A stretch of 64,000 nt of DNA, from contig NZ_CP051630.1 of assembly GCF_012848855.1 (NCBI RefSeq), positions 1,219,501 through 1,283,500 on the forward strand, read 5' to 3'. Position 1 is the stretch's first letter; each line of letters opens with the position of its first letter. Origin of the DNA: Pyruvatibacter mobilis (lineage in GTDB: Bacteria; Pseudomonadota; Alphaproteobacteria; CGMCC-115125). Made by a program: the position numbers and the translations under genes. Below are positions 5,587 through 8,612 of the stretch, piece after piece. Under the pieces are notes generated by a model. That model searched no databases. It saw only the letters and a program-made list of their open reading frames with translations, and had not been told where the DNA came from.

Positions 5587-5907
5587 CCGAGCGGTAACGT
5601 TCCTGCGCTGTTCATGCAGGACGTGGATCGGGACAAAGCGGGTGAACGCTGCCATAGCGGTCCTTCATGTCCATGTCTGAATGTCCGATGTCCGGTGGTC
5701 AAAGTCGCGATGGCAGCGCATCCTGCACAGCAAACCAGGGACAGGCCCGCTGTGTAGCTCACGCAGGATAGGGCGAGGTTTGGACAGGATAAACGCGGCT
5801 TAGGTACTGGGGAAAAGTAAATTCTGGCGAATTTGGCGTAGATAAACACTAACGAATCGTAAATATTTTGACCGCGGAGCACAGAATATGGTAGATGTCC
5901 ATCTTGT
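5587..5907. other. Intergenic region left of the two-gene cassette
   Basis: No gene is supported here. The left half has the usual GC-rich composition; from about 5770 the sequence becomes A/T-rich and continues so into the cassette. Short ATG-bearing frames exist but have no family look. I found no tRNA fragment, no transposase remnant and no clear flanking direct repeat that would mark an integration site. The promoter for the cassette should be within 5770-5900, but no convincing -35/-10 pair or strong ribosome binding site is visible. Confidence 0.6.
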
Positions 5908-6618
5908 ATGGACAATATATTGAAATTTTCAGATTATGACGCTTTTGCCTACGTCGCTTGCGGCGTGGTTGCATTTGCTATTTCTGATGTCCTTTTCGAT
6001 ACCCGGCTGGTGTTTACATCTGGGTGGACGTTTTCGGAAGGTCTCCTTTTTTTGATCGCAGCATATTTGGCCGGGCATCTCGTAGCGTCGCCGTCAAGTT
6101 GGGTATTGGAAAAACTGTTCGTCGGCAAAGTACTGGGGGCTCCCACGGCTCATCTAATTGGTCTAGGGCCACCAGGCCGGTTAGGGGCAAGTCTTAGACC
6201 TCTGTTCCGGGGCTATTTCGCTGAGATGCCAAAAAAGCAACTTTCAGCAGTCGCGCAAAGCGAGAACCTCACCGCAAACAACTCCGTAGACGGAGTATTC
6301 TGGCGCGCATATGTGGTGGCTCGACACAATCCGATCTCTTCCGCTCGAATGGAATCTTTTCTCAAGCTGTACGGATTTTGCCGGAACATGAGCTTCTTAG
6401 GTTTGGCAACGTTCGTCGGCGCTCTGTACATCGGCGTTTCGAATTGGTGTGAGGGCGGATGGCACGATCTCGTGGAAACACATTTAGTGATGAGTACGGC
6501 AGCAGGGATCGTTTGGCTTGTTCTACTCCTGCGCTACCTGAAATTTTATCGTCTTTACGCGCTTGAAGTGCTCTTGGCTTACGCAAAGTCAATTTCAGAT
6601 AAGGACCGACGATCATGA
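5908..6618 (+). CDS. Four-helix membrane protein of unknown function (cassette gene 1)
   Basis: I do not recognise this 236-residue protein. Hydrophobic helices are predicted at about 12-30 (AFAYVACGVVAFAISDVLF), 44-61, 156-178 and 193-212. The ~95 residues between helices 2 and 3 are hydrophilic and contain GLGPPGRLGASLRPLFRGYF; the C-terminus is a short basic tail. It begins at an ATG with no strong ribosome binding site. It ends in a 4-base ATGA overlap with the metallo-beta-lactamase-fold gene, so the two are translationally coupled and probably act together. Codon use is A/T-richer than in all neighbours, suggesting acquisition by transfer. Confidence 0.75.
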   Translation: MDNILKFSDYDAFAYVACGVVAFAISDVLFDTRLVFTSGWTFSEGLLFLIAAYLAGHLVASPSSWVLEKLFVGKVLGAPTAHLIGLGPPGRLGASLRPLFRGYFAEMPKKQLSAVAQSENLTANNSVDGVFWRAYVVARHNPISSARMESFLKLYGFCRNMSFLGLATFVGALYIGVSNWCEGGWHDLVETHLVMSTAAGIVWLVLLLRYLKFYRLYALEVLLAYAKSISDKDRRS

Positions 6619-7520
6619 TGCAAATTGTGGTTCATGACGTTGGGCACGGGGCTTGCGCTTCGATCCGGTTCCCCAATGGGAAACTGCTTATGTTTGATTG
6701 CGGCGCCGGAGGGGATGAAGGGTTCTCACCTGGTGCTTGCTATTGGAACCAGACCATTGACATGCTGACCCTCCAAAATCTCGATCACGATCACGTGGAA
6801 GGGATTTGCTCTCTCGTTGGCAATGTCAGCATTTGCGGACTCTTCAGTAACCCCTCTATCGGGGTAAAAGAGTTTGACGCGCTCAAGACATCTGGCTCGT
6901 CTCCCGCACTGAATTTAGTTCGTGACGTGATTGCAGCATTTGGACCCACGGTCGGCATCTCTGAGATAGACCTTGGGGGTGCACGAGTGACTTGGTGTTG
7001 GCTGAATTATGGTGATGCCGGAATTTCTACAACAAACGATCTGAGTGTGGTTGCGGTTGTTGAATATGGTCAATTCAAAATTGTCTTCGGGGGTGATCTA
7101 GAAAAACTTGGCTGGCAGCTTTTGATGCTGAACCCAGATATTAGGCGCGTCATTTCTGATGCGAACATTTTTGTTGCTTCGCATCATGGTCGCGATAGCG
7201 GTAGAAATGAGGAAGCAATGGGAGCAATGCGGCCTGATGTGGTTATTTTTTCTGATAAACGACGGCGATATGAAACGCAAAATACAAACTCATGGTATCG
7301 CCGCCGGACTAAAGGAATTGTGGATAGATCAGGGACCGAAAATATCTTTGATCCAAAGCTTCGTCACGTTCTTACGACACGGCGAGATGGCACATTGACT
7401 ATCAACGTTAATCAATTTGGTCGCTATGTAGTCTATCCGGGTCGCGCGAGCGAGCCGAAGACTGACAGCATGCTAGAATTCGAGAAAATCTTAGCGCTCT
7501 TGGACCCTATTTGTGCCTGA
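6615..7520 (+). CDS. Stand-alone ComEC-like metallo-beta-lactamase-fold protein (cassette gene 2)
   Basis: A 301-residue MBL-fold protein. The opening VVHDVGHGACASIRF and LLMFDCG match the start of the ComEC/Rec2 hydrolase domain. The metal motif reads N55-L-D57-H-D59-H60, so the first His of the usual HxDxDH is Asn. TNDLSVVAVVEYG leads to the metal Asp161 in FGGDLE, and H190-H191 lies in VASHHGRDSG, both as in ComEC. The competence channel domain is absent. About 70 residues after the fold include a basic stretch (KRRRYE, YRRRTKG) that could touch nucleic acid; that is inference. It overlaps the preceding membrane-protein gene by 4 bases and is as A/T-rich. Confidence 0.82.
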   Translation: MMQIVVHDVGHGACASIRFPNGKLLMFDCGAGGDEGFSPGACYWNQTIDMLTLQNLDHDHVEGICSLVGNVSICGLFSNPSIGVKEFDALKTSGSSPALNLVRDVIAAFGPTVGISEIDLGGARVTWCWLNYGDAGISTTNDLSVVAVVEYGQFKIVFGGDLEKLGWQLLMLNPDIRRVISDANIFVASHHGRDSGRNEEAMGAMRPDVVIFSDKRRRYETQNTNSWYRRRTKGIVDRSGTENIFDPKLRHVLTTRRDGTLTINVNQFGRYVVYPGRASEPKTDSMLEFEKILALLDPICA

Positions 7521-7544
7521 GAAGGCCAAATCCGTCGAGTGTCT

Positions 7545-8612
<1,068 letters not shown>

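Follow-up and report, generated by a model that had tools for sequence, protein, structure and literature searches.

Among the candidates listed in PADLOC 2.0 (2023) there is already a membrane/MBL pair, PDC-M48, consisting of a membrane protein (M48A) and an MBL-fold protein (M48B). No published experimental test of PDC-M48 members was found in the literature. Makarova, Gao, Zhang and Koonin (FEMS Microbiol Lett, fnz088, 2019) reportedly linked the Csx27 family, an accessory of type VI-B1 CRISPR systems, to competence-type, ubiquitin-system and WYL genes. In passages of two later papers, Csx27 proteins are described as having four predicted helices, as being encoded with components of transformation systems and as possible ssDNA channels (PMC7642515, PMC8209922, citing Makarova et al. 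2019). Csx27 was reported to be a repressor of Cas13b in E. coli (PMC8209922) whereas elsewhere it is said to augment immunity (PMC12669027), so that the term effector alone does not describe the family. Csx28, the membrane protein of type VI-B2 systems, depolarises membranes (PMC12669027), and RADAR alternates SLATT and Csx27 (PMC11676413). A core of MBL and E2-E1-JAB was described as type 6a by Iyer, Burroughs and Aravind in 2006 (PMC1779556); a membrane gene is not mentioned in the type 6a passage of that paper.

The two genes considered here, A and B, lie in a window of 64,000 nucleotides from Pyruvatibacter mobilis, and their features are collected in Table 1. The pair is a new example of a widespread, previously predicted mobile candidate anti-phage module and not a new system. 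The initial annotation had singled it out as the best candidate for an undescribed system, a view that has to be given up since PADLOC 2.0 lists PDC-M48 and, in the passages cited above, the Csx27 family is already placed with competence-type and ubiquitin-system genes. The locus resembles PDC-M48 in that B is a full-length PDC-M48B match with a membrane gene adjacent to it, and differs in that this membrane protein is matched by the Csx27 model and not by any PDC-M48A model. It resembles the type 6a operons, since relatives of the pair occur in or beside them and these operons end with membrane proteins of the same kinds, but the window pair lacks E2-E1-JAB and MBL1, the further MBL of these operons. 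Details discussed below that may be new are the position of the pair as phage cargo, the swapping of partners along the M48B tree, the site found empty in relatives, the replacement of His by Asn and the conserved C-terminal His-Gly tail of MBL1. The pair thereby ties together the PADLOC candidate PDC-M48, the Csx27 family beyond CRISPR and the ubiquitin-like type 6a operons.

Table 1. Coordinates of the features discussed; positions refer to the window unless a locus is given.
Feature	Position	Strand	Basis or remark
Gene A	5908..6618	+	Probably Csx27-like membrane protein, 236 aa
YGFCRN motif, A residues 155-160	6370..6387	+	Invariant in the eight closest Csx27-like proteins (alignments)
ATGA stop/start overlap coupling A and B	6615..6618	+	Sequence
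Gene B	6615..7520	+	MBL-fold protein of the PDC-M48B kind, 301 aa
Metal motif N55-x-D57-x-D59-H60 of B	6777..6794	+	Alignment to 9ic4 and family motif list; Asn replaces the first His of ComEC H-x-D-x-D-H
G160-D161-L162-E163 of B	7092..7103	+	D161 aligned with a ComEC ligand, presumably D700
H190-H191-G192-R193 of B	7182..7193	+	ComEC HHGS; Arg instead of Ser in the collected family
Accessory insertion	5792..7544	none	Missing from two complete same-genus genomes; limits approximate
Membrane gene after E2-E1-JAB	L076-L081, L083-L085		Two families

The A/B pair is a recent accessory insertion of about 1.75 kb, as genomes of the same genus have the same flanks without it. Both reading frames were recovered together with the four-base ATGA overlap by which they had been said to be joined, and the pair does sit, as initially annotated, between core genes, namely a 3-hydroxyisobutyrate-dehydrogenase-like gene and hemB/ALAD. 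The A/T-rich codons noted at first sight are borne out by the G+C content at third codon positions, which is 0.51 in A and 0.46 in B against a mean of 0.685 (SD 0.071) over the 62 ORFs of the window; this places A 2.5 SD and B 3.1 SD under the mean, B being the lowest of all 62, and the A and B stretch as a whole has a G+C of 0.45-0.53 compared with about 0.60 in its surroundings. When the locus was compared in close relatives, as had been proposed, two complete genomes of the same genus (G001 and G003) were found to hold both flanking genes in the same order, at 74-81% DNA identity, without the pair. In G001 the matches to the window end at 5791 and resume at 7545, with about 147 bp between them against about 1.75 kb in the window, and in G003 the same flanks are separated by 597 bp. 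Among the 59 genomes tried as relatives, B was present in the window's own only. Terminal repeats, a tRNA or an integrase were looked for in the window and none marks the ends of the insertion; nor were other defence genes identified beside the pair there. The empty site of G003 holds an unrelated small ORF, GIY-YIG nuclease-like by eye (L073, 1093-1464, in reverse orientation of the window), which indicates that this spot accepts different insertions.

The protein encoded by B belongs to the PDC-M48B family of PADLOC, matching its model with an E-value of 2.6e-44 (residues 2-265 of 301 against positions 1-259 of 270). The best match of its predicted structure (pLDDT 78, pTM 0.83) is the ComEC beta-lactamase-like domain 9ic4 (E 9.9e-15), and among solved structures the family profile of B matches the ComEC MBL domain and the phosphorylcholine esterase Pce. 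The annotation had described a protein with ComEC/Rec2 hydrolase signatures and no channel domain. The signatures VGHGACAS, GGDLE and VASHHGR are indeed present, and B, at about 300 residues, comprises the MBL fold only, without a channel or OB domain; against the ComEC/Rec2 model TIGR00361 it scores 24 bits, the cut-off being 190. The likeness to ComEC at the active site is however partial: B keeps D57, D59, H60, D161 and the HH pair, and hence the D-x-D-H, GD and HHG motifs, but its metal motif reads N-x-D-x-D-H rather than H-x-D-x-D-H and the serine of HHGS, Ser728 in ComEC, is Arg. Mutating the first His of ComEC (H598) abolishes its nuclease activity (PMC12455585). Asn occupies this first metal-ligand position in all collected proteobacterial M48B proteins except that of Methylocystis, and His is found there in Methylocystis, in the Bacteroidota member and in the haloarchaeal members (the Halobaculum motif was not resolved). 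Subclass B2 beta-lactamases have Asn at the corresponding place and are active as one-zinc enzymes, and by this analogy B need not be dead. A nuclease role is possible for B, although one of the ligands that ComEC requires is substituted. The window protein sits on a long branch of the M48B tree (1.62 changes per site), given which it could be drifting in function.

The protein encoded by A had been called an unrecognised four-helix membrane protein. Four long helices (7-30, 42-74, 142-183 and 187-235) are present in its AlphaFold model, which is of modest confidence (pLDDT 69, pTM 0.56), and hydropathy alone gives three strong segments. The word unrecognised does not stand, as A is probably Csx27-like, a likeness supported by profile E-values between about 1e-3 and 1e-7; with the PADLOC Csx27 model the E-value is 5e-5 (residues 6-215 against positions 3-188 of 206). 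Searches of Pfam and NCBIfam with A gave nothing specific and the PDC-M48A models of PADLOC gave no match up to E 10. The protein further resembles the Csx27 family in its length of about 230 residues, the four helices of its modest-confidence model, its near full-length HMM match, its operon with a ComEC-type MBL and the position of its relatives beside ubiquitin-system and WYL genes; no Cas13b or CRISPR array was seen among the ORFs neighbouring the pair. Besides YGFCRN, charged positions of the A family are invariant in the alignment, and the orthologues of A at L054, L063, L023 and L057 share 35-39% identity with it. The A-family profile shows a moderate match to the membrane partner at L014 (p 1.2e-4), and its comparison with the partners at L060, L016 and L009 was not convincing. 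A fold search with the weak model of A returned no credible match, solved pores included, and neither in sequence nor in fold was a link between A and Csx28 found. A search for the Csx27 family in 299 genomes gave no match anywhere, not even in its controls, and carries no information on absence.

A small membrane protein is encoded adjacent to M48B, or one small ORF away, in all of about 14 M48B lineages from Proteobacteria, Bacteroidota and haloarchaea, the count covering loci with a readable neighbourhood only; for comparison, about 4% of the genes of this window have such a neighbour. The membrane gene is interrupted by an IS4 element in L011 (Rahnella) and shortened in L075. These partners fall into several families with no detectable similarity between them. 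The Csx27 model matches six of 15 at 0.01 or better and does not match the TM2, TM3 and L015 proteins scanned with it, the PDC-M48A models match the partner of one divergent relative at 2.9e-53, and the L014 partner matches both PDC-M48A (1.5e-4) and Csx27. In a tree built from 18 M48B proteins, the type of partner has to change eight times, the minimum being five, and the close MBL sisters L009 and L010 (Polymorphobacter and Sphingobium) have different membrane partners.

Our leading, if tentative, reading is that A and B were acquired horizontally as a two-gene module against phages (or plasmids) in which the MBL protein would sense infection and control a membrane-damaging Csx27-like effector. 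B would be the conserved cytosolic sensing and enzymatic part, and A the effector that can be exchanged. In an infected cell, the MBL protein would act on a nucleic acid or nucleotide and thereby release or trigger the membrane protein, which would then perturb the inner membrane so that the cell stops, much as Csx28 does beside Cas13b. The window copy would represent a short form, which in some relatives is extended by a ubiquitin-like E2-E1-JAB protein and by another MBL. The coupling of the genes, the insertion and its absence from relatives, the family of B and the recurrence with exchangeable membrane partners are direct observations; that the module serves in defence, which protein controls the other, what B acts on and how A affects the membrane are inferred from them. 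A constant MBL with a variable membrane protein, membrane families common to two kinds of MBL, the alternation seen in RADAR and the depolarisation by Csx28 all fit a sensor-enzyme that controls a membrane effector; in their proposed mode, a small membrane effector with a nucleic-acid enzyme, Csx28 and the SLATT/Csx27 option of RADAR are alike to the pair (PMC12669027, PMC11676413). The family matches of A and B, the absence of the pair from same-genus genomes, its recurrence elsewhere, also behind phage head genes, and the exchange of partners speak for the sensor-effector reading. The conflicting reports on Csx27, the failure of the weak model of A to match a solved pore, the absence of any identified defence gene beside the pair and the long branch of B speak against it, as does the fact that the same pattern across genomes would arise if the membrane proteins were interchangeable anchors of a membrane nuclease. 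The two-gene form, with 1.6 kb, clear putative catalytic residues and natural phage-borne relatives, is the smallest unit for asking whether the MBL enzyme controls a membrane effector.

The main rival, which we regard as somewhat unlikely, is a membrane-held device for DNA uptake or degradation, in effect a split ComEC, in which the Csx27-like protein would be a channel or dock for ssDNA and the MBL would degrade or process DNA there, along the lines predicted by Makarova et al. (2019) in the passages that cite them. It draws on the structural match of B to the ComEC nuclease domain, on the retention of most ComEC active-site residues and on the reported occurrence of Csx27 with transformation-system components, possibly as ssDNA channels (PMC7642515, PMC8209922). 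Set against these are the Asn at the H598 equivalent, shared by the whole proteobacterial clade with the exception of Methylocystis, and the Arg at Ser728. A DNA channel matched to its nuclease would moreover hardly be expected to swap between dissimilar families, and the module comes without other competence genes.

That the coupled genes form a recurrent module, whose homologues turn up as adjacent pairs in varying spots, is supported by orthologous A/B pairs in a related member of the class (G100/L023) and in three contigs of a viral collection (L054, L063 and L057); the contexts are mobile and varied, and homologues are not confined to single genes or to a fixed core context. The ATGA coupling is repeated in L054, L063 and L023, and L057 has a one-base overlap. 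With strong matches only, both genes occur in the same two of 385 genomes sampled from the class. In L063 the pair lies downstream of phage portal, capsid and cement genes, and in L054 downstream of a portal gene of the same kind, so that in both it appears, from its gene neighbourhood, to be phage cargo. Searching GenBank phages for relatives of B yielded none, and one short unannotated record gave a weak match to the MBL of L014. More distant MBL relatives are found on plasmids of Alpha-, Beta- and Gammaproteobacteria, Bacteroidota and haloarchaea, and the neighbours of M48B loci include type I restriction and other nucleases, HipA, Fic and integrases. When the MBL alignment was used for a profile search across the phylum, mostly ComEC itself came back (open frames of about 800 residues), and the resulting tally of 133 genomes is not a count of the family.

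Rare and patchy genes such as these are often selfish or neutral, and it could be argued that the pair has nothing to do with defence: it might have a physiological or signalling function linked to mobile elements, or be what is left of a larger 6a operon in decay, without a present role. The same two genes close a four-gene operon in G100, of which the window pair could be a fragment, and the long branch of B points the same way. We consider this unlikely, as both frames are intact, the active-site motifs are kept except for the first His, and the pairs of L054, L063 and L057, which have no adjoining E2-E1-JAB gene, mark the two-gene form as an established unit.

A T[AG]TGGTA element precedes the A start codon by 21 to 15 bases, a spacing common to the window (5865-5907), L054 and L063, and a TTGAC/TTCGAC element lies about 17 bases upstream of it in all three; a clear Shine-Dalgarno sequence is absent. 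Judged by these motifs, the three loci may share a promoter that leaves a very short leader. A hairpin at the A start codon (GTCCAT/ATGGAC), seemingly common to L054, was dropped because it is absent in L063.

A membrane gene and M48B are found downstream of an E2-E1-JAB gene in G100, G417, Sphingobium and Agrobacterium, and beside one in Polaromonas; the loci in or adjoining type 6a operons are G100/L023, L010, L012, L061 and L013. In most of these operons the further MBL gene, MBL1, precedes E2-E1-JAB. Nine of ten further E2-E1-JAB operons, carried on plasmids, encode a TM2 or TM3 membrane protein directly after E2-E1-JAB, with or without another MBL. WYL genes adjoin the L012, L080 and L082 operons, in agreement with the reported link between Csx27 and WYL (Makarova et al. 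2019). Core genes flank the window pair, with neither E2-E1-JAB nor MBL1 beside it, and the window's own genome gave only a weak partial match to the E2-E1-JAB profile, an 82-residue E1 region (9e-7) elsewhere in the genome. When the C-termini of MBL1 were compared (L010, L021, L023, L061 and L076-L085), 14 of 15 proteins had an Ala/Gly-rich tail with His-Gly at the end or within six residues of it; M48B proteins, the kind found in the window, are without such a tail. Next to an E2-E1-JAB enzyme, the tail of MBL1 resembles a processed ubiquitin-like tail. In type II CBASS, an E1-E2 protein conjugates the C-terminus of the cyclase and a JAB protein releases it. By analogy with this conjugation, for which PMC10449767 offers a comparison, MBL1 may be the conjugated partner in the 6a operons, as a prediction only. 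A wider and more speculative proposal, which we hold to be improbable as a whole, is an architecture like that of CBASS, with a ComEC-type MBL in place of the nucleotide cyclase, which would drive exchangeable membrane effectors in a short (two-gene) and a long (type 6a) form; MBL1 of the long form would itself be the conjugated ubiquitin-like substrate, processed and attached by E2-E1-JAB through its His-Gly tail.

Least probable of all, and quite doubtful in our view, is that the MBL is itself the effector, a nuclease or phosphodiesterase that the membrane protein only tethers and that would cut incoming phage or plasmid DNA at the inner membrane, since the superinfection exclusion suggested by phage-borne copies and the conservation of the MBL beside a varying membrane protein are countered by the His-to-Asn change in the metal site, by membrane proteins that are larger and more conserved (YGFCRN and the invariant charged positions) than a bare anchor needs, and by the service of the same membrane families in 6a operons with a different MBL.

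At the Polymorphobacter locus (L009, 7568-9048), two more uncharacterised genes, with no Pfam match, overlap the membrane gene downstream of the pair. Further divergent MBL proteins are encoded at L020 (7687-8781), L082 (6290-7360) and L084 (6978-8057), where they stand beside a Csx27-like or TM3 membrane gene or, in 6a operons, occupy the place of the membrane gene.
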